From contig NZ_QEYD01000001.1 of assembly GCF_003122215.1 (NCBI RefSeq), forward strand, positions 248,001 to 312,000: a stretch of DNA of 64,000 bases, written 5' to 3'. The notes under the pieces were generated by a model. That model searched no databases. It saw nothing but the letters and a program-made list of their open reading frames with translations, and was not told where the DNA came from. Both the position numbers and the translations under genes were made by a program. Below, one piece after another: positions 10,069 to 63,933 of the stretch. Origin of the DNA: Pararhodobacter marinus (lineage in GTDB: Bacteria; Pseudomonadota; Alphaproteobacteria; Rhodobacterales; Rhodobacteraceae). Position 1 is the first letter of the stretch. Every line of letters begins with the position of its first letter.

Positions 10069-11271
10069 TCAGACGCGCTCGAGCGCGATGGCAATGCCCT
10101 GCCCCACGCCGATGCACATGGTGCACAACGCGCGCGTCCCACCGTTGAGCTGCATCTCCAGCGCGGCGGTGCCGGTGATCCGGGCCCCCGACATGCCCAG
10201 CGGATGACCCAGCGCGATGGCGCCGCCATTGGGGTTCACGCGCGGGTCGTCATCGGCGATGCCAAGCTGGCGCAACGTGGCCAGCCCCTGCGAGGCGAAA
10301 GCCTCGTTCAGCTCGATCACGTCGAAATCCGCCGGCGTCAGCCCCAGCCGCGCCATCAGCTTCTGCGAGGCGGGCGCCGGACCGATCCCCATCACGCGCG
10401 GCGGCACCCCGGCGGTCGCGCCGCCCAGGATGCGGGCGATGGGCGTCAGGCCATGGGCCTTGACCGCCGCCTCGGACGCCACGATCAGTGCCGCCGCCCC
10501 GTCATTGACGCCCGAGGCATTGCCCGCCGTCACCGTACCGTCAGCCGTCACGATGGGCCGCAGACGCGCCAGATCCTCCAGCGTGGTCGAGGCGCGCGGA
10601 TGCTCGTCGGTATCGACAAGGGTGGTGGCCTTGCGGCTTTTCACCTCGACCGGCGTGATCTCTTTCGCCAGACGCCCGTTTGCCTGCGCTGCGGCGGCCT
10701 TCTGCTGGCTGCGCAGGGCGAAAGCGTCCTGATCGGCGCGCGCGACGCCGTGGTCGACGGCGACATTCTCGGCCGTTTCGGGCATCGAATCGACGCCGTA
10801 TTGCGCCTTCATCAGCGGGTTGACGAAGCGCCAGCCGATGGTCGTGTCGTAAACCGCGTTGTTGCGCGAGAAGGCGCTGTCGGCCTTGGGCATGACGAAG
10901 GGCGCGCGCGACATGCTTTCGACGCCGCCCGCGATCATCAGATCGGCCTCGCCCGCCCTGATCGCGCGGGCGGCGGCCAGGATCGCGTCCATCCCCGAGC
11001 CGCACAGGCGGTTGATCGTGGTGCCCGAGGCCTCGACCGGCAGGCCGGCCAGCAGCGCGGCCATGCGCGCGACGTTGCGGTTATCCTCGCCGGCCTGGTT
11101 GGCGCAGCCATAGATCACGTCATCGACCGCCGCCCAGTCGACGCCGGCGTTGCGCTCGATCAGCGCCCGCAGGGGAACCGCGGCCAGGTCATCGGCCCGG
11201 ACCGAGGACAGGGCGCCGCCGAAACGGCCAATGGGCGTGCGGACATAATCGCAAAGGTAAGCATCGGGCAT
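10069..11271 (-). CDS. pcaF: beta-ketoadipyl-CoA thiolase / acetyl-CoA acyltransferase
   Basis: The 400-residue thiolase has the nucleophilic Cys in NRLCGSGMDA near residue 90, the His in NEAFASQGLA/GGAIALGHPLGMSGAR near residue 355, and the second Cys in CTMCIGVGQG near residue 385. The start MPDAYLCDYVRTPIGR and the 400-residue length match 3-oxoadipyl-CoA thiolases (PcaF/PaaJ type) better than PhaA. That assignment would place it at the last step of aromatic degradation, giving succinyl-CoA and acetyl-CoA. No other pca genes are in the window, so substrate assignment is tentative. A GGAG ribosome site supports the start at 11271. Confidence 0.85.
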   Translation of the reverse strand: MPDAYLCDYVRTPIGRFGGALSSVRADDLAAVPLRALIERNAGVDWAAVDDVIYGCANQAGEDNRNVARMAALLAGLPVEASGTTINRLCGSGMDAILAAARAIRAGEADLMIAGGVESMSRAPFVMPKADSAFSRNNAVYDTTIGWRFVNPLMKAQYGVDSMPETAENVAVDHGVARADQDAFALRSQQKAAAAQANGRLAKEITPVEVKSRKATTLVDTDEHPRASTTLEDLARLRPIVTADGTVTAGNASGVNDGAAALIVASEAAVKAHGLTPIARILGGATAGVPPRVMGIGPAPASQKLMARLGLTPADFDVIELNEAFASQGLATLRQLGIADDDPRVNPNGGAIALGHPLGMSGARITGTAALEMQLNGGTRALCTMCIGVGQGIAIALERV

Positions 11272-48907: not shown

Positions 48908-49783
48908 TCAGATAGGCCGGGGCGGCGCCTTGGAAAGCTGCACCGCCAGGATCCCGGCCATGATGATGGCGACGCCGATCACGTCGATCAGGCCCAACCC
49001 CTCGCCCAGCAGGGCCGCCGCGATGGCCACGCCGAAGAACGGATTGAGGAAATGGAAGGTCGCGCCGCGCACCGCACCGATGCGCTGCACCAGCATGAAC
49101 CAGACCCAGGTCGCGGCGAGGCCCGGCACCAGCGTGGTATAGAGGAAGGCAAGGATCAGGCGCGGGGTCCAGTGGACCTCGAACGTCTCGAAGGCCAGCG
49201 CCGGGCCGATCAGCGCGACCGAGCCCACCAGCATCTGCAGCCCGACCACCATCATCACGTTCCCGCCCGACGAGGCGCCGCGCAAAGCCAGCGTGGCGAT
49301 GGTCAGCGCGATGGCGGCCAGCACGCACAGCGCGACACCGACCGGGTCCAGCCCGCCGCCGAAACGCGCGCCCATGATCAGGATCACGCCCCCGAAACCG
49401 GCCACCAACCCGGCGACGGCGACGGGTTTCAGCCTGTCGCCCATGAACAGGAAGCCGGCGGCAGCCACCATCAGCGGCAGGGTCGAGGCGATGATCGCGG
49501 CGGCCGAGGCCTCGATCCACTGCATGGCGATGAAGTTGAGGCCCAGATAGGCCGCGTTCTGGCAGATCCCGAAAATGATCGTCGCCCGCCACTGAGAGCG
49601 CGTCAGGTTCCAGCTTTCGCCCAGCATCCGCGCGAGCGCGACGCCGATCAGCCCCGAGATGAGGAACCGCAGCGACAACGAGTAGAGAGGCGGCGCGTCC
49701 GCGACGATCATCCGGGCCGATGTAAAGGCCGAGGACCACATGAAGGCGAAAGCGAGGCCCATGAAGAGCGCTTTGAAATCCAT
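48908..49783 (-). CDS. EamA-domain (DMT superfamily) transporter
   Basis: The 291-residue protein starts at the ATG at 49783 behind AGAGGA and consists of two EamA repeats, together about ten membrane spans (FAFMWSSAFTSARM in the first, GATFHFLNPFFGVAIAA in the second). Such drug/metabolite exporters move amino acids or small metabolites. The substrate is not evident. The longer reading to 49963 lacks hydrophobic character and is not used. The 269-base stretch between it and katE (49784-50052) holds no gene I can support. Confidence 0.88.
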   Translation of the reverse strand: MDFKALFMGLAFAFMWSSAFTSARMIVADAPPLYSLSLRFLISGLIGVALARMLGESWNLTRSQWRATIIFGICQNAAYLGLNFIAMQWIEASAAAIIASTLPLMVAAAGFLFMGDRLKPVAVAGLVAGFGGVILIMGARFGGGLDPVGVALCVLAAIALTIATLALRGASSGGNVMMVVGLQMLVGSVALIGPALAFETFEVHWTPRLILAFLYTTLVPGLAATWVWFMLVQRIGAVRGATFHFLNPFFGVAIAAALLGEGLGLIDVIGVAIIMAGILAVQLSKAPPRPI

Positions 49784-50052: not shown

Positions 50053-52161
<2,109 letters not shown>

Positions 52162-52236: not shown

Positions 52237-52261
52237 AACCGCTTGATCGCGGGGATGTTCC
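52237..52261 (-). promoter_or_regulatory. EcfG-type promoter for katE
   Basis: On the minus strand: GGAAC, 17 bases, GTTTA. This is the consensus of EcfG/general-stress promoters in alphaproteobacteria. It ends 76 bases before the katE ATG. Confidence 0.75.
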
Positions 52262-52319
52262 CGGACCTTCGGCCCGGCTGATGCGGGGCGCGTCTTCCGC
52301 CGATTTTCACGCGGCGGCG

Positions 52320-52344
52320 GGAACATAGCGGTTGCGACGCGGTT
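52320..52344 (+). promoter_or_regulatory. EcfG-type promoter for the PRC-barrel gene
   Basis: On the plus strand: GGAAC, 17 bases, GTT, ending 58 bases before the PRC-barrel ATG. It forms a divergent pair with the katE promoter. Confidence 0.75.
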
Positions 52345-52402
52345 CATGGCCCGTAAAGCCGGATCGCCGTGATCCGGCGCCGTCTCACGAAGGAGAGATG
52401 CA

Positions 52403-52753
52403 ATGGACGTCGAAGGTTCCAATCTGGTTTCCGCCGACAATGTCGCGGGCACCAGCGTTTATGGCCCGGATGGCAGCAAGGTCGGATCGATCGACCGGGT
52501 GATGATCGACAAGGTCAGCGGCAAGGTGGCTTATGCGGTGATGAGTTTCGGCGGTATTCTCGGCATCGGCGGCGATGAGCGGCCCGTACCGTGGGGTGCG
52601 CTGAACTACGACACCAGCCTCGGCGGGTTCCGCACCAACATCACCGAGGACCAGCTGTCCGACGCACCGGCCAAGAACGATCAATGGCACAGGGACCGGG
52701 ACTGGGAAGAGCGCACGCATGCGGTCTACGGGTTGCCGCCGTACTGGATGTGA
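52403..52753 (+). CDS. PRC-barrel domain protein
   Basis: The 116-residue protein holds one PRC-barrel ([36 protein letters not shown], residues 17-52) followed by a Trp/Arg-rich C-terminal tail. A GGAGAG ribosome site precedes the ATG. PRC-barrel proteins of this size are common members of alphaproteobacterial general stress regulons, with unknown biochemical role. A terminator follows. Confidence 0.9.
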
Positions 52754-52780
52754 TCCCGGCGCGGACCTCACGACAAACAA

Positions 52781-52808
52781 GAGCCCGGCGCTTGCGCCGG
52801 GCTTTTCC
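52781..52808. terminator. intrinsic terminator after the PRC-barrel gene
   Basis: An 8-bp stem GCCCGGCG/CGCCGGGC (52783-52790 with 52795-52802) and a 4-base loop are followed by TTTTCC. It separates the gene from the convergent sigma factor gene. Confidence 0.85.
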
Positions 52809-52847
52809 TCACGGGCCTGTCCGGGACTGACAGGAACAGGGCCGGCG

Positions 52848-53399
52848 CTATTGCGTTGCCGACGCCAGGGTCGCGCGGGCGCGGTAGATGCGGCTCTTGA
52901 TCGTGCCGATATCGCAATCGAACATCTCTGCCGCATCAAGGTAGCTGACGCCCAGGATCACCACGGCCACGAAGGTCTCGCGGAAATGCACGGGAAGGTC
53001 GTTGATGGCGCGCACCATCTCGGACATGCGCAGATGCCAGTATTGCGTATCGACGATCCCGACGGGGATACTGGCCACGCAATCCTTGCTGCCCGGTTTT
53101 TCGCGCGCCTGCTTGATGCAATTCGAATAGAAACGATTGCGCATGATGGTGAACAACCACGCCCGCAGATTGGTGCCGGGCTTGTAGAGATGGATGTTCT
53201 CGATCGCCCGCAGCAAGGTTTCCTGCACCAGATCGTCTGCCTCGACCGGGTTCTTGCACAGGGACCGGGCAAAAAGACGGAGTGGCGGAATGAACTCGAT
53301 GACGGCGTCCGATTGCACGGTCTCGGACGAATCGCGTTGCACTGATACGGGCGGACGCACCGCCGCCTTGCCGCCCATGGCTTCGCTGGCCAGCTTCAT
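52848..53399 (-). CDS. EcfG-like ECF sigma factor (general stress response)
   Basis: From the ATG at 53399 (GGGAG site) the protein has 183 residues. Region 2 reads DDLVQETLLRAIEN...PGTNLRAWLFTIMRNRFYS and region 4 reads GVSYLDAAEMFDCDIGTIKSRIYRARA. This is close to the EcfG pattern, the sigma factor of the PhyR-NepR-EcfG cascade. Six consensus EcfG promoters lie within 10 kb of it. A clear match to that consensus is not present before its own start. PhyR is not in the window. Confidence 0.82.
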   Translation of the reverse strand: MKLASEAMGGKAAVRPPVSVQRDSSETVQSDAVIEFIPPLRLFARSLCKNPVEADDLVQETLLRAIENIHLYKPGTNLRAWLFTIMRNRFYSNCIKQAREKPGSKDCVASIPVGIVDTQYWHLRMSEMVRAINDLPVHFRETFVAVVILGVSYLDAAEMFDCDIGTIKSRIYRARATLASATQ

Positions 53400-53776
53400 G
53401 GCACTTCTCCCAATATGTGTCTGAAACAGCCCGCTCGGGGATGTCCCAGCGCATTTTTTTGTCGTGACCCTTCCCGCGCGCCGACAGGACATATCAGGCG
53501 CCGGGTGGTATCACGTCGTGTGGCTCGATGAACGGCAGGCCCCGGATGAGACGGTCATGAAATTCTTGTCCTCCGCCCCGGTCCGGCAATTGTGCAGGCC
53601 TCCCGCCCAGTCTTTCCGATAGGGTGGTGCGGGGTCAGGCCCTTGTCCACCGCTGCGCGAAAAAAAGGCGGTTGTCCGCTCAGACTCGGGCAACGGGCCG
53701 CTGATCGCAGCCAGCCGGAGGGCTTTGCGAAGACGGCGCCTAGCGGCTCATGTCGGTATTGAAGGAGTGCGCAGGA
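53400..53776. other. intergenic region without supported gene
   Basis: This 377-base stretch contains a short T-rich patch near 53454 and minus-strand reading frames without clear start sites (for example 53511-53693, 60 codons, no recognisable motif). A GGGAC-N15-GTTT string upstream of the sigma factor deviates from the stress consensus and is not counted. I see no RNA gene. Confidence 0.5.
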
Positions 53777-53944
53777 TCAGTGCGACGCCCGGTTTCGCGC
53801 TTCGACCGCGAGTTTCAGCTTGAGCGCAAGATCCGACAATTCCTTTGACACCGGCTCGGCCTCGACCTGTTTGAGCAACTGGGAAAGCGTCCGGTCAAAT
53901 TGCTCCTGCGCGACGGCAAGATCGGTTTCTTTGCGGTAAACCAT
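53777..53944 (-). CDS. small NepR-like protein (55 aa)
   Basis: From the ATG at 53944 the protein has 55 residues and consists of helices with the pattern LLKQVEAEPVSKELSDLALKL. This resembles the NepR core (EPVPxxFxxLLxxL), the anti-sigma factor of EcfG. It lies close to an EcfG-like sigma gene and an HWE kinase, which supports the idea, but the similarity is at pattern level. The ribosome site is weak (GAGA). A TTG at 53965 is an alternative start. It carries an RpoE-type promoter and a near-consensus stress promoter upstream. Confidence 0.5.
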   Translation of the reverse strand: MVYRKETDLAVAQEQFDRTLSQLLKQVEAEPVSKELSDLALKLKLAVEARNRASH

Positions 53945-54028
53945 CGTCCGTATCTCTCTTCGCAACGCCGCGCTGGCGGTTTGCAGTCATCGGGGGGCAA
54001 AGGCCCTGTGCGCGGCAGGTCAAAGGGG

Positions 54029-54056
54029 GGTACGTCCGGTTCGTTCCCCCGGATCA
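54029..54056 (-). promoter_or_regulatory. RpoE-type promoter, overlapping a near-consensus EcfG motif
   Basis: On the minus strand: TGATCC, 16 bases, CGTACC, matching the rpoE promoter of this window in -35 and spacing. Within it, GGAAC (54047 leftward), 17 bases, CTT is one base from the EcfG consensus. Either could drive the small NepR-like gene, with a leader of about 80 bases. Confidence 0.5.
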
Positions 54057-54101
54057 CCGCGGCACGGCGTTTTTCACCCAGACGACCGGAAATACCGGCG
54101 C

Positions 54102-57100
54102 TCACGTACCCAGCGGGACCTCGATCTGCACGTCGAGCCCTTCGGGGGGAAAGGCAAGCGTCAGCGTCCCCTGCAGGCGATATTCGATCTCGCCATGCAG
54201 CAGCTCGCTTCCGAAGCCCTTGTCCTCGGGCGGGGTGACGGGCGGACCGCCGGTTTCCCGCCACCGGATCCGCAGCCGCCCGGCATCGACCGACCACGAA
54301 ACGGTGACAGTCCCGCCCTCGGCCGAGAGCGCGCCGTATTTCATTGCATTGGTGGCCAGTTCGTGCACGGCCATCGCCAGCGACAGGCCCATCTGCGGCG
54401 ACAGGTTCAGGTCCTCACCCTCGAGCGAGAAGGCCTGCTCGCCATGCGGCCGAAGCTCGTCGGCCAGGATCCCGGCGAGCGAGGCGTTCTTCCAGCTTTC
54501 GCGCGACAAGGTGCCGTAGGTCCGGTTCAGCGCCTCAAGCCGGCCGGTGAAAGCCTGCCCGAAGGTCTCGAGATCCGGCGAGCGTTCCAGCGTCCGGCGC
54601 GAAATCGCGGTGACCACCAGCAACAGGTTCTTGACGCGGTGGTTCAGCTCGTCGACCAGAACCTGCTGATGCTGTTCGGCTTCTGCCAGCTGGGTGACAT
54701 CCACGAAGGTGACGACGACCCCGTCGATGGCCGCGCTGCCGGTCCGGTAGGGATTGAGGCGCAACAGGTAGTGCCGCCCGTCCGCATCGGCGCCGAGTTG
54801 CCGTTGGTCCGGCTCGCCCAGACGGAACACGCGGTCGATCTCGGCGTGCAGATCCGGATATTCCTGCGCGCCCGACAGGTCGGTCAGAGGTCGCCCGATA
54901 TCGCTGTTGCGCAGGTTGAAGAACGCGGCCGCCGCCGGTGTGAAACTGCGGATCACCAGCGCCTCGTCCAGAAAGATCGTGGCGATTCCCGTGCTTTCGA
55001 ACAGGTTCTGAAGGTCGCTGTTGGCGCGGTCCAGCTCGTCGATCTTGTGGTTCAGCTCGGCGTTGATCGTGTTGAGCTCTTCGTTGAGCGACTGCGATTC
55101 CTCTTTCGATGCCTCCAGTTCCTCGTTGGCGGATTGCATCTCTTCATTGACCGAGGTCAGCTCTTCGTTCGAGGATTTCAGCTCTTCCAGCGCGGTTTCG
55201 TATTCCTCGATCGTCGATTGCAGCCGCTCCTTGGTATCGCGCAGCTCCTGCTCGTATTCGCCGTGGCGGCGGGCTTCGTCGTCGCCCGTCTGCGGTATCG
55301 CCTCCGCATCGGGGCTGCCGCGCAGGTCGAACACGACCAGATACAGCAGATCCGCACCCTTGGAATCGCCCAGCGGCTCGATGCTGATATCGACCAGCTG
55401 GATCGGCTCGCCCTCGCTCTCGATGCGCAGGCCCTGCCGGGTGACGCGCGTCTGCGTGCGCACGCATTCCCGCAGCGCGCCCCGCAGATCCAGCCGCAGC
55501 CCGTGCCGCGCCAGCGTCAGAAGGTGGCGGCTGGGGGCGCCTTGCGGCGCTTCGAGGACACGCCCGGTTCCGGCCGAGTAATAGACGATATCCGCATCCG
55601 AGGTGACGGCCACATGCGCCGGCGCATAGCGTTCGAGGATCCGGCTTTCGATCCGGCTGCGCAGCGAGCCCATCCGCTCTTTCGGCATCGAGGCAGTCCC
55701 TTCCGAGAAATTGCGCGCCCGGCTGGGGCCCGTGAGAGCGGGCACCTTCAGCGAGCGGCCCACATGTTCCCGCGCCTGATAGATGCGGTGTTTCTTGTCG
55801 ATCGTGGCGAACAGGTCGCCATGCGGCCCGATGCTTTCGGAACTGCCAAGGAACAGGTAGCCCCCGGGTCGCAGCGAGTAGTGAAAGGTCGGGATCACGT
55901 GACGCTGCACGTCGGGGCCGAAATAGATCAGCAGGTTCCGGCACGACACCATGTCCATTCGCGAGAACGGCGGGTCCCGCACCAGGCTGTGCGGCGAGAA
56001 GATGCACAGCTCGCGGATCTCGGCGGTGACGACCCGGCTGTCGCCGTCGGGCTTGAAGAACCGCTTCACGCGCTCGGGCGAGACCTCGGCCAGCAGGCTG
56101 TCGGGATACCGCCCGGTCCGCGCCACCGACAGCGCCGCCTCGTCGATATCGGTCGCGAAGATCTGAACCTGCGGCGGAGTCTCGATCCGGTCCATATGCT
56201 CGCGCAGCAGGATCGCCAGCGAATAGACCTCTTCCCCGGTCGAACAGCCCGGCACCCAGATCCGCAGCGTGTCGCCCCGGGATTTGCCTTCGAACAGAAG
56301 CGGCACGATCTGGCGCTCGAGTTGGGCGAAAGCCTCCGCGTCGCGGAAGAAATTCGTGACGTTGATCAGCAGATCGCGGAACAGGTTCCCGATCTCGACC
56401 GGATCCTTTCGCAACAATTCGAGATAGGCGTCGAGCGTCTGCAATTGCCGGACCTGAAGGCGGCGATAGACCCTGCGAAAGAAACTCCGGGTCTTGTAGC
56501 CGGAAAAATCGTGGCTCGAATGCGCGGTCAGAAGGGCGCAGATCTCGTGGTGGATGCGGTCAAGCTCGGCCGCGCGATGGGCATCGCCGGCGCTGCGCGC
56601 GTCGGACAGCGCCCGGAAACTGCGCGCGAAGACTTCCAGCCGGTGCGGCATGGCCTCGGGCTGCATTTCCAGATCGACCACGTCGCTCGACACCGCGCTT
56701 TCCGGCATGGCCGCGGTGTCCATGGGCTCGGCCTTTGTCACCCGGGCAAGGGTCAGGCCCCCCACCTCGCGGATCGCCTTCGATCCCAGCGTCCCGTCGC
56801 CGTCCTCCCCCGCCAGCAACACGCCCACCGCGTATTCTCTCCGATCCTCGGCCAGCGAGGCAAAGAAATTGTCGATGGGACGCGGCGCATGTTCGCCCGG
56901 CTGCGGTACGGACAGGTGAAGCGCTCCGTCACGGAACGTCGCGGCACAATGATGCGGGATCAGGTAGGCATGCCCGGCAAGCACACGAACGCCGTCCTCG
57001 GCCATCGCGAACTTGACGGGCGAGCCGGTGGAAAGCTCTTTGCAAAGATCCTCCCATCCATGCGTTTCGACCGGCGGGATCACGATCATCGCGAAGCCGG

Positions 57101-57194
57101 GTTCTTCGGTAAAGGCACCGAAAAAGGCCCGGAGCGTTTCCGCCGCGCCGGTCGAGCAGCCGATTGCGACGATCGGGTATCTACTGTCAGGCAT
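54102..57194 (-). CDS. CheB-CheR-PAS-HWE histidine kinase
   Basis: The 1030-residue protein has, in order: a CheB methylesterase-like domain (1-200, Ser in GCSTGA, Asp in LLAGEDGDGTLG, but the QHxxP His motif reads VIPPVETHG); a CheR methyltransferase domain (205-490, NVTNFFRD, WVPGCSTGEEVYS, CRNLLIYF); a long coiled coil rich in Glu/Asn (about 640-730, TIEEYETALEELKSSNEE); a PAS domain (about 735-835); and an HWE kinase domain with His852 in DELNHRVKNLL, HELATNAMKYGAL and WRE. There is no membrane segment. It diverges from a response regulator, its likely partner, with 147 bases between. Confidence 0.92.
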   Translation of the reverse strand: MPDSRYPIVAIGCSTGAAETLRAFFGAFTEEPGFAMIVIPPVETHGWEDLCKELSTGSPVKFAMAEDGVRVLAGHAYLIPHHCAATFRDGALHLSVPQPGEHAPRPIDNFFASLAEDRREYAVGVLLAGEDGDGTLGSKAIREVGGLTLARVTKAEPMDTAAMPESAVSSDVVDLEMQPEAMPHRLEVFARSFRALSDARSAGDAHRAAELDRIHHEICALLTAHSSHDFSGYKTRSFFRRVYRRLQVRQLQTLDAYLELLRKDPVEIGNLFRDLLINVTNFFRDAEAFAQLERQIVPLLFEGKSRGDTLRIWVPGCSTGEEVYSLAILLREHMDRIETPPQVQIFATDIDEAALSVARTGRYPDSLLAEVSPERVKRFFKPDGDSRVVTAEIRELCIFSPHSLVRDPPFSRMDMVSCRNLLIYFGPDVQRHVIPTFHYSLRPGGYLFLGSSESIGPHGDLFATIDKKHRIYQAREHVGRSLKVPALTGPSRARNFSEGTASMPKERMGSLRSRIESRILERYAPAHVAVTSDADIVYYSAGTGRVLEAPQGAPSRHLLTLARHGLRLDLRGALRECVRTQTRVTRQGLRIESEGEPIQLVDISIEPLGDSKGADLLYLVVFDLRGSPDAEAIPQTGDDEARRHGEYEQELRDTKERLQSTIEEYETALEELKSSNEELTSVNEEMQSANEELEASKEESQSLNEELNTINAELNHKIDELDRANSDLQNLFESTGIATIFLDEALVIRSFTPAAAAFFNLRNSDIGRPLTDLSGAQEYPDLHAEIDRVFRLGEPDQRQLGADADGRHYLLRLNPYRTGSAAIDGVVVTFVDVTQLAEAEQHQQVLVDELNHRVKNLLLVVTAISRRTLERSPDLETFGQAFTGRLEALNRTYGTLSRESWKNASLAGILADELRPHGEQAFSLEGEDLNLSPQMGLSLAMAVHELATNAMKYGALSAEGGTVTVSWSVDAGRLRIRWRETGGPPVTPPEDKGFGSELLHGEIEYRLQGTLTLAFPPEGLDVQIEVPLGT

Positions 57195-57341
57195 GTAGGC
57201 TTTCCAGCATCAGGACGAATCGGGCCAAAGAGCGTGTTACCGAACCGGCAGGGCAAACAAAAAAAGCCCGGAAGTCCGCTTGTTGGCGGCTTTCCTTCAT
57301 ACGAATCATTGTCATTCGCCGATTGGCCTTAGGTTAACACA

Positions 57342-58004
57342 ATGGGTGAACGGCGCATCCCCCGGTTGAAACAGGGCGGTGCCAACCAGACATCAGAGGA
57401 GACGAAACCCGGAGGAAGACGCTTGCGGATCCTGATTGTAGAAGATGATTTCTTTGGCGCGCAACAGCTTGCGTCCGAGATTCGCAGGACGGGCAACAGC
57501 GTGATCGGGCCGTTTCCGACCATGCAGCTGGCCTTGCCCCATATCGAGTCGAGCGACGCCGCCATTCTCGACGTGTGTCTGGGCAATTCGGTCTCGTTCC
57601 CCGTGGCCGACGCGTTGATGTGTTCTGGGGTGCCGTTCCTGTTTCTGACGGCGCATGACAACCGCAAGGTTCCCGAACGGCTGAGCCATGTGCGCGTCTT
57701 TGCCAAGCCCACCACCGCCGATTCCCTGCTTCAGGCGCTCAGTATGCCAGTTGCAGAGCCGGGAATAGGGCCGGGAATGGGCATCACGACAACAGAACCG
57801 GTCGAAAGCGTGGTGAACGGGCTTCTCGATCACGCCCGCGGGGTCCTGCCCGACCGCTCCGCCGCCGAGCGGCTCGTTGCCGCGGTGCTGCGCGACGCGA
57901 TCAGCAAGGCTCCGAAACGGAGCGACGGCGAAGAGACCGGTCCCTGGCTGCGCCGTCTGCTGAACGACGAGCTGCGCAACCGCCGACGCCGCCATTTCCA
58001 CTGA
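57342..58004 (+). CDS. response regulator with receiver and uncharacterised C-terminal tail
   Basis: The 220-residue protein has a receiver domain from about residue 28: ILIVEDDFFG (acidic residues), the phosphorylated Asp in AAILDVCLG near residue 83, Thr in FLFLTAHD and Lys in VFAKPTT. The C-terminal 90 residues show no DNA-binding fold I recognise and end in an Arg-rich HFH tail. An in-frame TTG at 57423 has a strong GGAGGA ribosome site and begins exactly at the receiver, so it may be the true start. It is probably phosphorylated by the adjacent HWE kinase. Confidence 0.85.
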   Translation: MGERRIPRLKQGGANQTSEETKPGGRRLRILIVEDDFFGAQQLASEIRRTGNSVIGPFPTMQLALPHIESSDAAILDVCLGNSVSFPVADALMCSGVPFLFLTAHDNRKVPERLSHVRVFAKPTTADSLLQALSMPVAEPGIGPGMGITTTEPVESVVNGLLDHARGVLPDRSAAERLVAAVLRDAISKAPKRSDGEETGPWLRRLLNDELRNRRRRHFH

Positions 58005-58013
58005 CAACACGGG

Positions 58014-58274
58014 CTACTCGCCTTTCTGGTAGAACCGGATCAGGGCAAGGACTTCCTCCATCTCGGCCGCGCGCTTCATGCCGTTGGGGACGCCCGGGAT
58101 CGTCACGGCGCCGGGGTCTTCCTGCCCGTCGGTTGCCATCGACGCCCTGAGCAGCCAGTCGCAAAGCTCTTGCCGTTCGGCCTCGGGCAGCAAGAGGACG
58201 GTCTTGGCCACCACGCGGCGCAAGGCGCTCAGACTGGCCTTCAGCGCCTCGATTTCGGTTTCCGGATCGGTCAT
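58014..58274 (-). CDS. small hypothetical protein, stress-promoter linked (86 aa)
   Basis: From the ATG at 58274 (AAAGGGG site) the protein has 86 residues, beginning MTDPETEIEALKASLSALRR and rich in helices. The start of longer readings (to 59537) crosses otsB on the other strand. Two Cys-free helical segments (VVAKTVLLLPEAERQEL and MEEVLALIRFYQKGE) suggest a small helical bundle. A GGAAC-N17-GTT promoter faces it from the region shared with otsB. Function unknown. Confidence 0.7.
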   Translation of the reverse strand: MTDPETEIEALKASLSALRRVVAKTVLLLPEAERQELCDWLLRASMATDGQEDPGAVTIPGVPNGMKRAAEMEEVLALIRFYQKGE

Positions 58275-58330
58275 GTCTTTCCCCTTTCTGAGCGCCCCTT
58301 TCTGAGCGGGGTCCACGAAACGTGGCCACA

Positions 58331-58365
58331 GGTGGGAACATCCGCCGCGCCCGGTTGTTCCCACC
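58331..58365. promoter_or_regulatory. symmetric bidirectional EcfG-type promoter
   Basis: GGTGGGAACA (58331) and TGTTCCCACC (58356) are exact inverted repeats with 15 bases between. On each strand this gives GGAAC, 17 bases, GTTCC, so one element can fire otsB to the right (58335-58359) and the small gene to the left (58361-58337). Confidence 0.75.
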
Positions 58366-58417
58366 GGGTCTCGATCCGAGGCGACCTCCCGGAACCCGGA
58401 CGAAAGGTCGGAAACCG

Positions 58418-59179
58418 ATGCCGAACACCCTTCATGCTCTGCGCGGGCCGGGCCGCCACGCCCCGCCGGACCCTGCGCGTCATGCCTTCTTTCTCGATTT
58501 CGACGGCACCCTTGTCGACATTGCCGCGCGCCCGTCCGAGGTCGTGCTGCTGCCTGAAACCGTGGATCTCCTGAAGGCGCTTCAGCGGGCCAGCGACGGC
58601 GCCGTGGCCATTCTCTCGGGGCGCGCGCTTGCCGAGCTTGAACGCCTGACGGCGCAGGTTGCACCCGTTCTCGCGGGGACGCATGGCGTCGAGATAAGGC
58701 GCGACGCGGGAACGCTGACCCCCTCTTTCGCGGATCGCCGGGCGCTCGATACCGCGTATCGGGTGCTGGACGATCTGGCCCGCAGCCACGGCCTGCTGCT
58801 TGAAACCAAGCCGGGCGCCTTGGCGCTGCATTACCGCAACCGGCCCGACCTGGCGCCCTTGTGCAAGAACGCCGTGTCAGAGGTGGCCCGCAAATCGAAC
58901 CTTCGGATGATCGCGGGCAACATGGTCTGCGAGGCAATGCTGACCGGCTACGACAAGGGCCGCGCCCTGCAGACGCTGATGGGCGAAGCGCCGTTCCGCG
59001 ACCGCATCCCCGTGATGGTCGGCGACGACACCACGGACGAGGACGGATTTCTGGCGGCGCAACAGCTCGGCGGTATCGGCGTGAGCATCGGCCGCAGGGA
59101 CAGCTGCGCCCGGCTGTTTTGCCCCGACCGCTACAGCGCGATGGACTGGCTGCGCGCGGGCGTTGAACGAAGCGTCTGA
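58418..59179 (+). CDS. otsB: trehalose-6-phosphate phosphatase
   Basis: The 253-residue protein has the HAD motif FLDFDGTLVD near residue 25 (nucleophile Asp), and GDDTTDEDGF near residue 203, typical of OtsB. It hydrolyses trehalose-6-phosphate to trehalose. The ATG at 58418 follows AAAGGTCGG. It precedes otsA on the same strand by 91 bases; both enzymes give osmotic and desiccation protection, and are common targets of the general stress response. A consensus stress promoter lies upstream. Confidence 0.96.
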   Translation: MPNTLHALRGPGRHAPPDPARHAFFLDFDGTLVDIAARPSEVVLLPETVDLLKALQRASDGAVAILSGRALAELERLTAQVAPVLAGTHGVEIRRDAGTLTPSFADRRALDTAYRVLDDLARSHGLLLETKPGALALHYRNRPDLAPLCKNAVSEVARKSNLRMIAGNMVCEAMLTGYDKGRALQTLMGEAPFRDRIPVMVGDDTTDEDGFLAAQQLGGIGVSIGRRDSCARLFCPDRYSAMDWLRAGVERSV

Positions 59180-59185
59180 CCGGCG

Positions 59186-59211
59186 GGAACATTTCCGGCG
59201 ATGCGGCGGTT
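59186..59211 (+). promoter_or_regulatory. possible EcfG-type promoter for otsA (18-base spacer)
   Basis: GGAAC, 18 bases, GTT lies just after otsB. The spacer is one base longer than the consensus found at the other sites. It may give otsA extra expression beside read-through from otsB. Confidence 0.4.
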
Positions 59212-59224
59212 GTGCCGCCCGAGA

Positions 59225-59244
59225 GACCGTCCGACCGGACGGTC
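59225..59244. promoter_or_regulatory. perfect 20-base palindrome before otsA
   Basis: GACCGTCCG-AC-CGGACGGTC is an exact inverted repeat with 9-base arms and a 2-base centre, 26 bases before the otsA ATG. It could be a repressor operator or an RNA hairpin near the ribosome site. Confidence 0.4.
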
Positions 59245-59270
59245 GGAAACCGGACATCAGGGGGGGTGGA

Positions 59271-60686
59271 ATGACAGGCAGGCTGATTGTTGTATCGAAC
59301 CGGATCCCAAGCGAGACCGGGGGTGCGGGCGGATTGATCGTCGCGCTGCACGACGCTCTGAGCGCGACGGGTGGCCTGTGGATCGGCGCGGAAGCGGACC
59401 CTGTCGAGACGCCCGGGGAAAGCCTGCGGGTTCTGTCCAGCCAGCCCTACAGTCGGCTGGGCTATCAGCTGAGCCATCAGGAGATCGAGCATTTCTACCT
59501 GGGCTATTCGAATTCGGTGCTGTGGCCGCTTTGTCACCGTCGTCCCGACCTAGTCGACCTGAAACCCGCCTACGAGGAAAGCTATCGGGCCGTGAACCGG
59601 CGGGTGGCGCGGATGATCGCGGCGATTGCCCGGCCCGAAGACACGATCTGGGTGCACGATTACCATTTCTTCCCGCTGGCCGCGGAATTGCGGGCGCTGC
59701 GCCTGCAGAACAGGATCGGCTTCTTCCTGCACATCCCGTTCCCGTCTCTCGGCGATCTTTCCGTCCTGAGCCAGCCTGCGGATTTTGCCGAGTGGCTGGG
59801 GCATTACAACCTTGTCGGCCTTCAGACGCTGTCGGACGTGGCGCGCGCGCTCGAGATGTTCCGCGCCGATCCCCGGGCCGAATTCCTGATGGACGGCACC
59901 GTCAAGTTCCGCGACAGGATCACCTCGGTGCGTTCCTTTCCGATCGGCATCGATGTCGAACAATTCCAGAAGGACGCGGCGGCGCAGGATGAGCAGCCCT
60001 TGGGCAAGGAAGCGCCGGAAAGCTATTTCATCGGTGTCGACAGGCTCGATTATTCCAAGGGCCTGCCGAACCGGTTCCGGGCCTTCGGTCGCTATCTCGA
60101 AAACCGCCCGCCCGACCAGCGTCCCTGTCTGGTCCAGATCGCGCCGCCTTCGCGCGAACGGGTGCAGGCCTATCACGATATCACCCGCGAGCTTGAAGAG
60201 ATCGCCGGGCACCTGAACGGCACCTTTGCCGAACTGGACTGGACGCCGCTGCGCTACATCCACCGCAGCGTTCCGCGTCACCGGCTGGCGCGCCTGTTCC
60301 GCGGAGCGCGGGGATGCCTGGTGACGTCGTATGCGGACGGGATGAACCTGGTGGCGAAGGAATACGTCGCGGCGCAGGACCCTGACGACCCCGGCGTTCT
60401 GATCCTGTCGCGGCTGGCCGGCGCGGCCGAGGAATTGTCCGCCGCTCTGTTGATCAATCCCTATGATATCGACGATATCGCCGGCGCGATCCGTCAGGCC
60501 GTTTCCATGCCGCTTGCCGAGCGCCAGCGCCGTCACGCGGCCTGCCTGAAGGCCGTGATGGCCAACGATGCGACCGGCTGGGCGCGTTCTTTCGTGAGCG
60601 TCCTGTCGCAGGTGCCGGGAACCCTCGTCTGGCCGGGCAGTACCGGACGGCTGGAAGACAGCGAATTCCTGGCGCCTTCGGATTAA
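59271..60686 (+). CDS. otsA: trehalose-6-phosphate synthase
   Basis: The 471-residue GT20 glycosyltransferase has LIVVSNRIPSETGG at the N-terminus, VWVHDYHFFPLAAELR near residue 125, GVDRLDYSKGLPNRFRAF near residue 257 and DGMNLVAKEYVAAQ near residue 355. It joins UDP-glucose (or ADP-glucose) and glucose-6-phosphate to make trehalose-6-phosphate, the substrate of OtsB. A G-rich ribosome site precedes the ATG; the longer reading from 59163 is not used. Confidence 0.97.
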   Translation: MTGRLIVVSNRIPSETGGAGGLIVALHDALSATGGLWIGAEADPVETPGESLRVLSSQPYSRLGYQLSHQEIEHFYLGYSNSVLWPLCHRRPDLVDLKPAYEESYRAVNRRVARMIAAIARPEDTIWVHDYHFFPLAAELRALRLQNRIGFFLHIPFPSLGDLSVLSQPADFAEWLGHYNLVGLQTLSDVARALEMFRADPRAEFLMDGTVKFRDRITSVRSFPIGIDVEQFQKDAAAQDEQPLGKEAPESYFIGVDRLDYSKGLPNRFRAFGRYLENRPPDQRPCLVQIAPPSRERVQAYHDITRELEEIAGHLNGTFAELDWTPLRYIHRSVPRHRLARLFRGARGCLVTSYADGMNLVAKEYVAAQDPDDPGVLILSRLAGAAEELSAALLINPYDIDDIAGAIRQAVSMPLAERQRRHAACLKAVMANDATGWARSFVSVLSQVPGTLVWPGSTGRLEDSEFLAPSD

Positions 60687-60755
60687 TCATCCCGTCACAC
60701 TTTCGGGCAAAAGCTGGCGCAAGGCGGTGGATCGGACCGTGACCCGGATCGCAAG

Positions 60756-60780
60756 GGAACCCGTCCCGGACCCGTCCGTT
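60756..60780 (+). promoter_or_regulatory. EcfG-type promoter upstream of the MFS gene
   Basis: GGAAC, 17 bases, GTT on the plus strand, ending 63 bases before the ATG at 60844. Confidence 0.7.
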
Positions 60781-60843
60781 GACCTTGACTAATGTTAACC
60801 CGCAAGCGGCATTCGCCCGAAAACCGACCCCAGATCACGAAGT

Positions 60844-62088
60844 ATGTCCCGTAGTCTTCTTCCGCTCATCGCCCTGTTCATGGGCACCGCCCTTCTGCTT
60901 TTCGCCGGCGGGATCAACGGCCTGATCCTGCCCGTGCGCGGAACCGCCGAGGGTTTCAGTGCCACGTCGCTGGGGCTTTTGGGGACGGGCTGGGCGGTCG
61001 GTTATATCGCGGGCTGCCTGCTGACGCCGTGGCTGGTGGTGCGCGTGGGCCATATCCGGGCGTTCGGCGCGATGTGCGCCGGGGCAGCGGTGGCCATCCT
61101 GGTTTCCCTTCTGGTGATCGCGCCCGGGATCTGGATCCCGGTGCGTGCCCTGTCCGGCTTCTGCTTTGCCGGTGCGGCGATGATCGCCGAAAGCTGGCTC
61201 AACGAGAAAGCGGATGCCCGCTCGCGCGGCAGGATCTTCGGCATCTACACCATGGTCAACCTTGCCGCGACGACGGCCGGGCAGATGATCCTGTCGCTGG
61301 GGGATTCGTCGGGGTTCTTCTTTTTCGTGCTGGGAGCCATCGTGTATTGCCTGGCGCTTCTGCCCACCGCCGTGGGGGCCACGACCAGCCCCACGCCCCT
61401 GACGGTAGTGAAGCTCGATGTCGGCGCGCTCTGGCGCAATTCGCCGGTCGCGGTGTTTGCGGTGCTGATGGTCGGCATTTCCAATTCCGCCTTCGGCACC
61501 CTTGCCGCCGTCTATGCCGACTGGGCCGGGTTCTCGATCACCGATATCGCCCTGTTCGCCAGCATCCCGATCCTGGCCGGGGCGCTGTCGCAGATCCCGA
61601 TCGGCGCCGCCTCGGACCGGTTCGACCGGCGCCGGGTGCTGCTGGGCGTGTCGGTTCTGGCGCTGATCACCGATCTGGCTTTCCTGTTCACCGGCAGCAC
61701 GGATCCGGTCCTGCTGTTCTGCCTCTCGGCCGCTTTCGGCGCGACGGTCTTCGTGATGTATCCGGTGATCGTCGCCCATGCCAATGACCACGCGGCGCCG
61801 GGAACCTTCATCCAGGTCAGCGGCGGGCTCTTGCTGGTCACCGGCATCGGCTCGGTGATCGGTCCCACTGTCGCCGGGCTGGCCATGGGCTATTCCGATC
61901 CCTCCGCAATGTTCCTGGTGACAGGGATCTGCCATCTGAGCGTCATTCTCTTCACGCTCTGGCGGCTGCGCGTCCGCTCGGCCATCGCCACGGGCCTGAA
62001 GACGGCGTTCCAGGCCTCGCCCATGGCGCGGATGTCGACGCCAGAGACGGTTGCCCTGTCTTCGGATGACATGGCCGAGGCACGGTAA
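60844..62088 (+). CDS. MFS transporter (YcaD-like group)
   Basis: The 414-residue protein has about twelve predicted membrane spans. MFS signatures are ESWLNEKADARSRGRIFGIYTM near residue 118 (first part) and IGAASDRFDRRRVLLG near residue 254. It resembles the MFS protein at 38555-39772 in spacing and loops (RIFGIYTMVN versus RAMAVYRMVD). The substrate is unknown. A stress promoter upstream suggests use under general stress. Confidence 0.87.
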   Translation: MSRSLLPLIALFMGTALLLFAGGINGLILPVRGTAEGFSATSLGLLGTGWAVGYIAGCLLTPWLVVRVGHIRAFGAMCAGAAVAILVSLLVIAPGIWIPVRALSGFCFAGAAMIAESWLNEKADARSRGRIFGIYTMVNLAATTAGQMILSLGDSSGFFFFVLGAIVYCLALLPTAVGATTSPTPLTVVKLDVGALWRNSPVAVFAVLMVGISNSAFGTLAAVYADWAGFSITDIALFASIPILAGALSQIPIGAASDRFDRRRVLLGVSVLALITDLAFLFTGSTDPVLLFCLSAAFGATVFVMYPVIVAHANDHAAPGTFIQVSGGLLLVTGIGSVIGPTVAGLAMGYSDPSAMFLVTGICHLSVILFTLWRLRVRSAIATGLKTAFQASPMARMSTPETVALSSDDMAEAR

Positions 62089-62164
62089 CGGCTCGCTTCC
62101 TGACGCATCGGCCTTCCCCCAACACCGACGGCCTTTCTTTCCGCCTGTGGACGCCCGGCGCGCG

Positions 62165-62189
62165 GGAACAACCTGTCCCTGCGCGGGTT
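62165..62189 (+). promoter_or_regulatory. EcfG-type promoter for the acyl-CoA dehydrogenase/PIG-L operon
   Basis: GGAAC, 17 bases, GTTTA on the plus strand, ending 30 bases before the ATG at 62220. Confidence 0.72.
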
Positions 62190-62219: not shown

Positions 62220-63221
62220 ATGACCGCCGATCAGAAGACCCGCAGAATCATCCCTCCCGAGAGCTCGGCGCTGCCGCTGGACCCCGGTCTCTGGGCGGAT
62301 CCCCGGTCGCTGCACCGCGCCCTTCGCCGCGCGGGACACGAGGATCTGAGCGAGGCGCGGCTGCTCGAAGGGCATGTGAACGCGCATCGGCTTGTCTGCA
62401 GCCTGGGCAGCGACGCGCAACGCCGCAGGACCGAGTCCGAGATGCGCGCGGGCGTGTTGTTCGGGGTCTGGGGCGCCGACAGCGCGACCAAGGTCGCATG
62501 GGACGGGCGCGTCCTGTCCGGTGCCAAGCAATTCGCGTCGGGTCTCGGGCGGGTGGGCAAGGCCATCGTTCCCGCGATTGGCCCTGACGCGCAGCAACTC
62601 GTCATCGTGGATGCGTCCGATCCGGGGCGTCACCGCAGCGCCGACTGGAACATGACCGGCATGCAGGCCAGCCTTTCGGGCGGGTTTCTCTGCGACGGGC
62701 TGACCGGCGAAACGCTGGGCGCGCCGGGCACCTATCAGCGCGAACCCGGTTTTCTGGGCGGCACATGGCGGATCGCGTCGGTCACGCTGGGCGGCATTGC
62801 CGGGCTTCTCGACCGCGCCGCCCTGGCGCTGGGGCGGCGCGGATATCTGGACGCCGAGGCGCAGGCGCTGCGCCTGGGGCCCCTGGCCATCCGCGCGCTG
62901 GCGGCAGAGGACGCGATCCTCAGGGCCGGCGTGATCGCCGAGGGCGCGGCGGGACAGAAGGACCCCGAGGCCGCCGCCACCAGATCGGTAGCGATGCGCC
63001 TGCTGACCGAAGAACTGGCGCAGGAAGCCATCGCCGGGGTCGAGCGTTCCGTGGGATTGTCGCTCTTTCGGGTCGACGACCCGGTCGGGACCCATGCCCG
63101 CGATCTGGCTTGCTATATCCGGCAGGCCGCACGGGACGCGATGATGCTGCGCGTCGCACGTTCCCTGCTGACCGGGGGCACAGGACAGGGCGCGGGGCTG
63201 GAGGCGTGGTTCGATGCGTGA
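62220..63221 (+). CDS. acyl-CoA dehydrogenase-like protein (short)
   Basis: The 333-residue protein resembles acyl-CoA dehydrogenases in its middle and C-terminal region: VLFGVWGADSATKVAWDGRVLSGAKQFASG near residues 79-108 matches the beta domain, and the C-terminal helices end around residue 320. The N-terminal helical domain is shortened, and the usual catalytic Glu cannot be placed with certainty. It overlaps the PIG-L gene by 8 bases. Its partner genes suggest modification of an acyl group on a sugar- or lipid-like product, which is inference. Confidence 0.7.
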   Translation: MTADQKTRRIIPPESSALPLDPGLWADPRSLHRALRRAGHEDLSEARLLEGHVNAHRLVCSLGSDAQRRRTESEMRAGVLFGVWGADSATKVAWDGRVLSGAKQFASGLGRVGKAIVPAIGPDAQQLVIVDASDPGRHRSADWNMTGMQASLSGGFLCDGLTGETLGAPGTYQREPGFLGGTWRIASVTLGGIAGLLDRAALALGRRGYLDAEAQALRLGPLAIRALAAEDAILRAGVIAEGAAGQKDPEAAATRSVAMRLLTEELAQEAIAGVERSVGLSLFRVDDPVGTHARDLACYIRQAARDAMMLRVARSLLTGGTGQGAGLEAWFDA

Positions 63222-63933
63222 CCCGTCATCCATGGCCATGACCACCAGCTTCGATGCCCTGACGCACGGCGCGCCTTTGGTCGTGCTGGCCCCGCATCCC
63301 GACGACGAATCGCTGGGCTGCGGAGCGCTGCTGGCGCAGGCCTTCGCGGCGGGAACGGGCGCGCTGGTCGTGTGCCTGACGGATGGCAGCGCTTCGCATA
63401 AAGGGTCTCGCCGCTATCCGCCCTCGCGCCTTGCCGCGCTGCGACGGCGCGAGCTTGAGGAGGCTGTCCTCCGGCTGGGCGGAACGCCGCGCGACATCCT
63501 GTGGCTGGGGCTCGAGGACGCGCGAACCGCCGGCAATCCGAGGATCCCGGCGGTGATCCGCCTGTTGTGCCGGACCTGCCAGCGGCTTGGCGCGGGCTCC
63601 CTTTTTGCCACGCTCGAAACCGATCCGCATACGGATCACAAGACCGCCGCCGCCATCGCCGAGGCGGTCGCCGCGCGGGTGGGCCTGAGACATTTCGGCT
63701 ACCCGATCTGGACCCGCTGGCAGCGCCCGGATTTCCGTGCGGACCTGACGGGCTGGACCGAACACCGGCTTCCGCCGGGCCCCCACGCGGCCCGCAAGCG
63801 CGCCGCGATTGCCGCGCATCGCAGCCAGCTCGAACCGCTGATCGACGATGCGGCCGTGTCCTTCCGGCTTGACCCCGGTTTTGTCGAGGATCTCTCGACC
63901 GGGCCCGAGCTTTTCTTCGAGAGGTCCAGATGA
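63214..63933 (+). CDS. PIG-L family N-deacetylase
   Basis: The 239-residue protein has the zinc motif APHPDDESLGCG near residue 26 and the second histidine segment DPHTDHKTAAAIAEAV near residue 136. This is the LmbE/PIG-L fold, which removes acetyl groups from N-acetylglucosamine-type substrates. Its start overlaps the upstream gene and its stop overlaps the next start (ATGA), so the three are co-translated. The sugar substrate here is unknown. Confidence 0.9.
   Translation: MRDPSSMAMTTSFDALTHGAPLVVLAPHPDDESLGCGALLAQAFAAGTGALVVCLTDGSASHKGSRRYPPSRLAALRRRELEEAVLRLGGTPRDILWLGLEDARTAGNPRIPAVIRLLCRTCQRLGAGSLFATLETDPHTDHKTAAAIAEAVAARVGLRHFGYPIWTRWQRPDFRADLTGWTEHRLPPGPHAARKRAAIAAHRSQLEPLIDDAAVSFRLDPGFVEDLSTGPELFFERSR

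Follow-up and report, generated by a model that had tools for sequence, protein, structure and literature searches.

In the canonical PhyR-NepR-EcfG (ECF15) system, PhyR carries an N-terminal sigma-like part (regions 2 and 4) followed by a receiver. Two general-stress sets per genome, together with HWE kinases, have been reported for Rubellimicrobium thermophilum, where both PhyR copies have, in the accessible part of the report, ordinary sigma-like and receiver domains (PMC12148442). Rhizobium etli possesses a second EcfG, EcfG2, linked to catalase and oxidative stress, for whose targets no motif was found and near which the available text of the paper names no anti-sigma factor or response regulator (PMC3892343). 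Little is said to be known of the regulation of Sinorhizobium meliloti RpoE5 in the consulted portion of a report that describes there no protein family, cognate receiver protein or island (PMC6180224), and for non-canonical EcfG sigma factors the pattern is, according to the excerpt available, yet to be determined (PMC8103513). A search of the open-access literature for such islands, or for a receiver-sigma protein, returned nothing comparable to the locus described here, which lies in a 64-kb stretch of the 4.49-Mb draft genome of Pararhodobacter marinus (contig C11, positions 248001-312000; hereafter the window). Like the canonical system, it has an EcfG-type sigma factor, a NepR-like small protein (family B), a receiver with a sigma-like part (REC-sigma2), an HWE kinase and GGAAC-type promoters; it differs in that REC-sigma2 has the receiver first and the sigma part last, with region 2 only, that family B is unmatched by the Pfam NepR model, that the promoters mostly read GGAACA, and that the regulators lack an exact motif and have their regulon packed beside them on an insertion. 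As judged from its sequence, the locus is probably a self-contained stress island of about 25 kb, with a non-canonical EcfG, its own partner switch and a neighbouring regulon.

The pattern GGAACN{16,17}GTT was searched with both spacings, the reversed pattern serving as control. Eight matches were found in the window against a shuffle mean of 2.43, and at least eight were reached in 0 of 100 shuffles, which bears out the expectation, in an earlier sequence-only reading of this DNA, of well under one motif per 10 kb by chance. That reading had listed six exact motifs, all of which were confirmed, but it had missed one, so that the stretch 52237-62189 holds seven exact GGAAC-N17-GTT sites. The promoter-like ones are 52237-52261 (- strand, GGAACA-N16-GTT), with the start of katE 76 bp on; 52320-52344 (+), with the start of a PRC-barrel gene 59 bp on; two overlapping divergent sites at 58335-58359 (+) and 58337-58361 (-), between otsB and an 86-aa gene; 60756-60780 (+), before a gene of the major facilitator superfamily (MFS), which reads GGAACC and is thereby an exception in the island; and 62165-62189 (+), before the operon that begins at 62220. 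The seventh site (52833-52857, +), which has no called gene behind it, lies partly within the 3' end of the sigma gene; as a promoter it would be directed into that gene against its reading direction, and it is not counted as one.

Beyond the window, nine further exact N17 sites were detected in the next 20 kb, where 0.32 were expected, and the cluster extends 11 kb past the window. The genome-wide search that had been suggested with the sequence-only reading gave a divided answer: the core pattern is not enriched in the genome as a whole (190 matches versus 242 for the reversed control), but 16 of the 190 fall within 23 kb (C11:300237-323283), where 0.98 are expected (Poisson 1.3e-14, for a region picked after the cluster had been seen). 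Because the core pattern is rarer than its reversed control, the motif alone is no mark of promoters, and its use as a marker of a genome-wide regulon was rejected. All 16 island sites have spacing 17 and none has spacing 16; the 25.2 kb of the island hold 16 N17 and 0 N16 sites, versus one N17 site in 78.8 kb of flanks. With A as sixth base (GGAACA) there are 52 matches in the genome versus 14 in the control, and 14 of the 52 are inside the island. Thirteen of the 16 sites lie 10-76 bp upstream of a gene start, twelve of them by the gene calls, which came from a codon-usage caller made for the purpose, so that start codons are approximate; the thirteenth, at extended position 70903 (window numbering continued past its end), precedes ku only on the assumption that translation begins at an internal ATG, 26 bp past the site, a start consistent with the Ku model. 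The three sites without gene placement are 52833, 75178 (the mirror of 75180) and 75259. Two pairs of opposite sites overlap fully (GGAAC-N17-GTTCC), one at 58335-58361 in the window and one at extended 75178-75204 (positions 11178-11204 of locus L032), so that the -10 of one site falls inside the -35 of its partner; two divergent genes flank the first pair, and the second has one side without a called gene.

The island runs from about 50.0 to 75.4 kb and is a block of stress genes inserted between a gene for an EamA/drug-metabolite transporter (DMT; 48908-49783, -, a name read from the sequence), its left neighbour, and an HU gene, which is followed by an AMP nucleosidase gene at the right border. 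In five genomes of the same genus (G594, G588, G595, G222 and G592) the DMT-HU distance is 1.5, 2.1, 2.3, 9.9 and 3.3 kb; in the 20 kb read from each there was no island gene, and these 100 kb contain one N17 match. Since the flanking genes stand close together without the island in these five genomes, the block is an insertion. Two other same-genus loci were uninformative, one (G585) having no HU or AMP nucleosidase gene in the 40 kb read and the other (G591) being rearranged and on a short contig. Among 29 other loci with the DMT gene, taken with a 1.5-kb flank, the DMT-HU-AMP nucleosidase run was seen in 6, and 23 were without it. The G+C content of the island (0.665) is like that outside (0.658 and 0.669), and no tRNA gene was found when such genes were looked for within it. 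At the level of sequence, the compact local regulon foreseen by the sequence-only reading is well supported, and the clustering recurs around related sigma factors, but the island has roughly double the length first seen and is inserted. The DMT-HU interval differs in genes and length among the same-genus genomes (L255 9853-19741 in G222; L256, L257, L258 and L261), and it looks like an insertion hotspot.

The sigma gene (52848-53399, -) encodes 183 aa with PF04542, PF22029 and PF08281 over their cut-offs, so the earlier label "EcfG-like" holds at the level of type, although the canonical EcfG of this genome is on contig C29. There, a NepR over the PF18557 cut-off adjoins two PhyR_sigma2 matches, with phyR, nepR and ecfG in that order. 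A tree of 33 EcfG proteins separates a clade of 17 rows, which includes the window sigma, from 16 canonical rows with support 100/100, in a bootstrap that had not fully settled. Taken with the set on C29 and with the lack of any NepR match in the extended locus, this led us to reject the window sigma as the canonical EcfG; by its sequence it is classed as a non-canonical EcfG, EcfG-type in the wide sense of having sigma regions 2 and 4, PhyR_sigma2 likeness and GGAAC-N17-GTT sites in its surroundings. The non-canonical rows derive from 16 of 295 genomes of the family, recognised by a tree of best-matching loci, by which more distant ones may be missed; one same-genus genome (G222) has the canonical kind only, among its matches.

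Clustering of N17 sites was also seen around the relatives of this sigma: 14 loci with a non-canonical sigma hold 72 N17 versus 10 N16 sites (reversed controls 10 and 11), with 1 to 10 N17 sites per locus and one each in L073 and L078. In the 80 named loci that were the best matches listed in a scan, near-duplicates and canonical loci included, there are 368 N17 versus 31 N16 sites (controls 55 and 63). Gene order varies between loci, and genes for a short-chain dehydrogenase/reductase (SDR), PRC, ligD, sodC, MgtC, otsBA and a ferritin-like protein, the last named by annotation in R. etli and by reading of the sequence elsewhere, recur in several. In R. etli p42f, the 50 kb around the sigma taken as EcfG2 contain 14 N17 and 2 N16 sites versus 4 in the controls, and the sixth base is A in 8 and C in 6 of the 14. 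The dense N17 run there (L262 24422-36919) also holds ferritin-like and DUF4142 genes.

The promoters of the islands differ from canonical ones mainly in the base after GGAAC. In sets chosen by exact motif and position, 52 of 78 island-type sites (16 loci plus the window island, L077 also having a canonical set at its edge) have A here and 14 have C, versus 18 with C and one with A among 22 canonical sites from 15 loci (Fisher 1.6e-7 and 5e-8). C before GTT is rarer in the islands (21 of 78 versus 15 of 22; P 8e-4), and G is commoner there (36 of 78 versus 5 of 22; P 0.054). The GGAAC-N16/17-GTT consensus invoked in the sequence-only reading mostly appears here as the variant GGAACA rather than GGAACC.

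Between the sigma and kinase genes there is a previously unannotated gene for a protein of 55 aa (53777-53944, -), which we name family B and consider a candidate anti-sigma factor by its profile likeness to NepR; a paralogue, also of 55 aa, lies beyond the window (extended 69108-69275, -). The window protein matched no Pfam or NCBIfam family over cut-off, including the NepR model PF18557, for which its own genome has the C29 match only. Aligned by hhalign, the family B and NepR profiles match with Prob 94.4 and score 33.9 over 40 gapless columns, the best of 100 column shuffles scoring 13.7 and the reversed NepR profile 15.4. An AlphaFold model of the protein has two helices (3-29 and 34-54; predicted local distance difference test, pLDDT, 83.5).

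A profile of ten family B relatives from nine genomes, with the best 21 or so candidates per genome scored, matched 16 of the 295 family genomes. At E<=1e-9 it is present in 12 of the 16 island-sigma genomes, and in 11 of these its gene is no more than about 4 kb away from that of the sigma; nine of the 12 had supplied the profile and G021, G135 and G285 had not. Because family B came to notice through its position next to these sigma factors, presence in the profile-building genomes is no independent count. The other matches are G217 at 3e-7 and three weak ones, one of them in an island-sigma genome (G147). In the best 80 named loci, family B lies at most 9 kb from the sigma in 30 and a NepR beside the sigma in 21, and the two occur together in 0 versus 7.9 expected (hypergeometric 7e-6); the profile used for this count includes sequences from those loci, nearly all of which had been found with the earlier family-genome profile. 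Loci with family B among the 80 include those of Mesorhizobium, Rhizobium, Neorhizobium, Ensifer and Paracoccus. In S. meliloti 1021 a relative (L208 7882-8088; first-profile E 5.5e-10) is convergent to the sigma gene, and an unannotated open reading frame (ORF) similar to RsiA1 and RsiA2 had already been noticed at that place in a study of its extracytoplasmic function (ECF) sigma factors, as the consulted part of that study reports (PMC6180224); this ORF is a prior published notice of one family B member. A search of plasmids with a family B protein of Rhizobium yielded 83 records, of which 77 were from Sinorhizobium, 5 from Mesorhizobium and 1 from Martelella, and none from Rhizobium.

REC-sigma2 (57423-58004, +; TTG start, with an alternative ATG at 57342) is a response regulator whose receiver (about residues 1-107) has E7/D8/D9, D50, T76 and K95 in place. 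The acceptor Asp is kept in 8 of the 9 such proteins compared, that of L202 having Glu. Its tail of about 70 residues (124-193) resembles sigma region 2 (hhalign Prob 97.5; best of 100 shuffles 17.8), scoring 66.9 to the non-canonical sigma versus 54.2 to canonical EcfG, and no Pfam sigma region 4 was found in the protein. With a profile of nine tails, the first eleven matches in the PDB are ECF sigma factors and PhyR-type response regulators, including 3t0y, 3n0r, 5uxw, 5uxv and 4g97, which we take to be PhyR, and 2lfw and 4qic, called PhyR in their records; the first two E values are 9.6e-6 (a PhyR) and 5.6e-5, which alone are below 0.001, and the rest run from 0.0035 to 0.14. The chains 9cb6 and 9by5 are called PhyR in the part of the source available (PMC12148442). 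In the structural model (pLDDT 76, with linker 108-123 below 50) the tail forms helices 127-141, 145-165 and 172-192. A REC-ANTAR protein, which has the same domain order, was rejected as an explanation, given that Pfam at E<=1 finds Response_reg only and that the tail profile lists sigma and PhyR-type chains first; two chains that are presumably two-domain REC-ANTAR proteins, 1s8n and 6ww6, are among the Foldseek matches of the model, with long alignments at root-mean-square deviations of 14-20 A. The kinase (54102-57194, -; 1030 aa) is of the CheB-CheR-PAS-HWE type (PF01339, PF01739, PF13596 and PF07536, HWE_HK, E 6.2e-20). A CheB-CheR-HWE kinase beside the sigma of another locus (L206 6794-9988, in G263) was called as two ORFs of 160 and 875 aa and is perhaps a split or broken copy.

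Full-length REC-sigma2 was found in 5 of the 295 family genomes and in 4 of 289 genomes of the class, the best 11 or so candidates per genome being scored. The eight genomes (G000, which is in both sets, G018, G051, G217, G272, G309, G326 and G551) all have family B, and four of them (G217, G309, G326 and G551) were found by both searches without having supplied the profiles. The two genes adjoin in five of the eight (G018, G217, G309, G326 and G551). G309, from another family, has all four genes in one contiguous stretch, in the order sigma, REC-sigma2, family B and kinase, the last with 51% identity; in G326 and G551 one run is made up of REC-sigma2, family B and a CheB-CheR-HWE-type kinase.

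Starting from the sites, gene content, insertion, remote homologies, co-occurrence and adjacency, and promoter difference observed, a switch can be proposed whose binding, phosphorylation, sigma release and promoter use by the island sigma are suggested by homology, pairing and adjacency. Under stress the kinase would phosphorylate REC-sigma2 at D50, and the sigma-region-2-like tail of the phosphorylated protein would capture the family B protein, freeing the sigma. The freed sigma would transcribe the GGAAC-N17-GTT promoters of katE, PRC, the 86-aa gene, otsBA, MFS and the 62220 operon, as well as those of BON, the second PRC-like gene, sodC, gene 68241, SDR, ku and ku2-ligD. It is a tentative proposal, to which we give a chance approaching even, that these parts make up a second, orthogonal partner switch in this clade, in which REC-sigma2 (an inverted, half-size sigma mimic), a NepR-like mini anti-sigma family and a CheB-CheR-HWE kinase control non-canonical EcfG sigma factors of this and related islands that read a GGAACA dialect, switch and regulon being carried in one inserted block. 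The locus names a candidate anti-sigma factor, antagonist, kinase and promoter variant for the poorly understood non-canonical EcfG sigma factors of this clade. If the proposal is true, a partner switch can work with half a sigma mimic whose order is reversed, and inheritance of a stress regulon as a single block is possible; a stress response may then pass on as one package of a sigma, a probably matching switch built from known parts in a new arrangement, and a common promoter signal.

Several results weigh against the proposed switch, above all the lack of a full-length REC-sigma2 match in the majority of the island-sigma genomes (12 of 16). Family B is missing at the E<=1e-9 threshold in four of the 16 (G050, G147, G154 and G263), neither family B nor NepR was found in 29 of the best 80 named loci, and in two loci (L072, 9337-9507, and L075, 9356-9523) a NepR-like ORF stands together with family B near a non-canonical sigma, possibly as a third arrangement. 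The family B match is weak in G326 and G551 (E 5e-5), where no sigma was found in the 20 kb read, EcfG-like genes being elsewhere in both, and in G051 REC-sigma2 is far from the island. A PDB profile search with family B gave no NepR chain at E<=10, Foldseek gave no match with its model, and the 50 matches listed for the REC-sigma2 model include response regulators and receiver domains, with no sigma factor or PhyR. GGAACAW-N15-GTT occurs 294 times in the 16 island-sigma genomes versus 184 in 16 taken as lacking the sigma (14 canonical in the tree, and G001 and G013 outside it; reversed control 81 versus 101), but the difference in density, 4.6 versus 2.8 per Mb (Mann-Whitney 6e-4), is a modest effect. 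No exact motif was found upstream of the switch genes (sigma, both 55-aa genes, kinase and receiver protein), and a one-mismatch scan of their upstream stretches turned up a single poor site, in front of the first of the two 55-aa genes, and nothing for the others. Autoregulation is usual for canonical ecfG; with no exact motif before the switch genes, it is not predicted for the island sigma. In R. etli, which is the case studied best, p42f was examined over 30001-80000 around the sigma and neither family B (E<=0.1) nor full-length REC-sigma2 was found, which limits a separate switch to this clade, and R. etli must use something else. The gaps in REC-sigma2, those in family B and R. etli together imply that other antagonists act there, or that the module is one of several solutions.

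An explanation that we regard as rather unlikely is that the canonical EcfG, itself under PhyR-NepR, mainly serves the island promoters, with the island sigma as a minor amplifier and the small and receiver proteins as side players. A role as minor amplifier has reportedly been proposed for Caulobacter crescentus SigU, the core motif of the two systems is identical, and phyR-nepR-ecfG is present in the genome. When overexpressed, RpoE5 of S. meliloti, a sigma of this type, had a single target, and its own gene is a target of RpoE2, in the portion of the study available (PMC6180224). Against such an arrangement, the sixth base differs (A versus C), the cluster of sites travels with the non-canonical sigma, and the EcfG2 regulon of R. 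etli is largely separate, as far as the consulted text of that paper goes (PMC3892343).

The island proteins themselves could be read in other ways, each of which we hold to be improbable. Family B and REC-sigma2 might be additional NepR-like and PhyR-like parts that buffer the canonical EcfG and form no separate switch, as could be imagined from their remote homology to NepR and sigma region 2 and from the roles in one network that the accessible part of a Methylobacterium study gives to NepR paralogues (PMC4814048); but family B tracks the non-canonical and not the canonical sigma, the REC-sigma2 tail is closer to the former, and all four genes are contiguous in G309. Nor is there much probability that family B is a mere regulon member whose likeness to NepR arose by chance among short helical proteins, with the sigma controlled by its synthesis and having no anti-sigma factor. 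The sequences are indeed short and of low information, the PDB search gave no NepR, and the sigma occurs without family B in four of 16 genomes and in R. etli; yet the gapless match of 40 profile columns far exceeds that of 100 column shuffles, REC-sigma2 is accompanied by family B in all eight genomes that have it, and the S. meliloti ORF at the place of the family B match (L208 7882-8088) was independently called RsiA1-like in the available part of its report (PMC6180224).

As regards the remaining genes of the island, the names katE, PRC, otsB and MFS given in the sequence-only reading found support in Pfam. katE (50053-52161, -) encodes a large catalase (PF00199/PF06628/PF18011, with NCBIfam catalase HPII below cut-off), and the PRC-barrel protein (52403-52753, +) has 116 aa (PF05239, E 1.1e-11). 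They are followed, past the regulators, by the 86-aa gene (58014-58274, -), which matched no Pfam or NCBIfam family; otsB, for trehalose-phosphatase (58418-59179, +; PF02358); otsA, for trehalose-phosphate synthase (59271-60686, +; PF00982, TIGR02400 below cut-off); and the MFS transporter gene (60844-62088, +; PF07690). The first gene of the 62220 operon (62220-63221, +) had been called an acyl-CoA dehydrogenase, a name that went unconfirmed, no Pfam or NCBIfam family matching at 1e-3; it is followed by a PIG-L deacetylase gene (63214-63933, +; PF02585), and the operon runs on past the window. The units that bear sites are katE, PRC, the 86-aa gene, otsBA, MFS, the 62220-PIG-L operon and BON-MgtC, and further a second PRC-like gene (a weak match, below cut-off), sodC, gene 68241 (no family), SDR, ku and ku2-ligD. 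This one island has two different ku genes (L032 6953-7756 and 10295-11146), each with its own promoter-like site, and a single ligD. Relatives of the 86-aa gene with 43-45% identity adjoin ligD in two other islands (L072 5912-6166 and L075 13172-13453), which hints at a link of this gene to non-homologous end joining.

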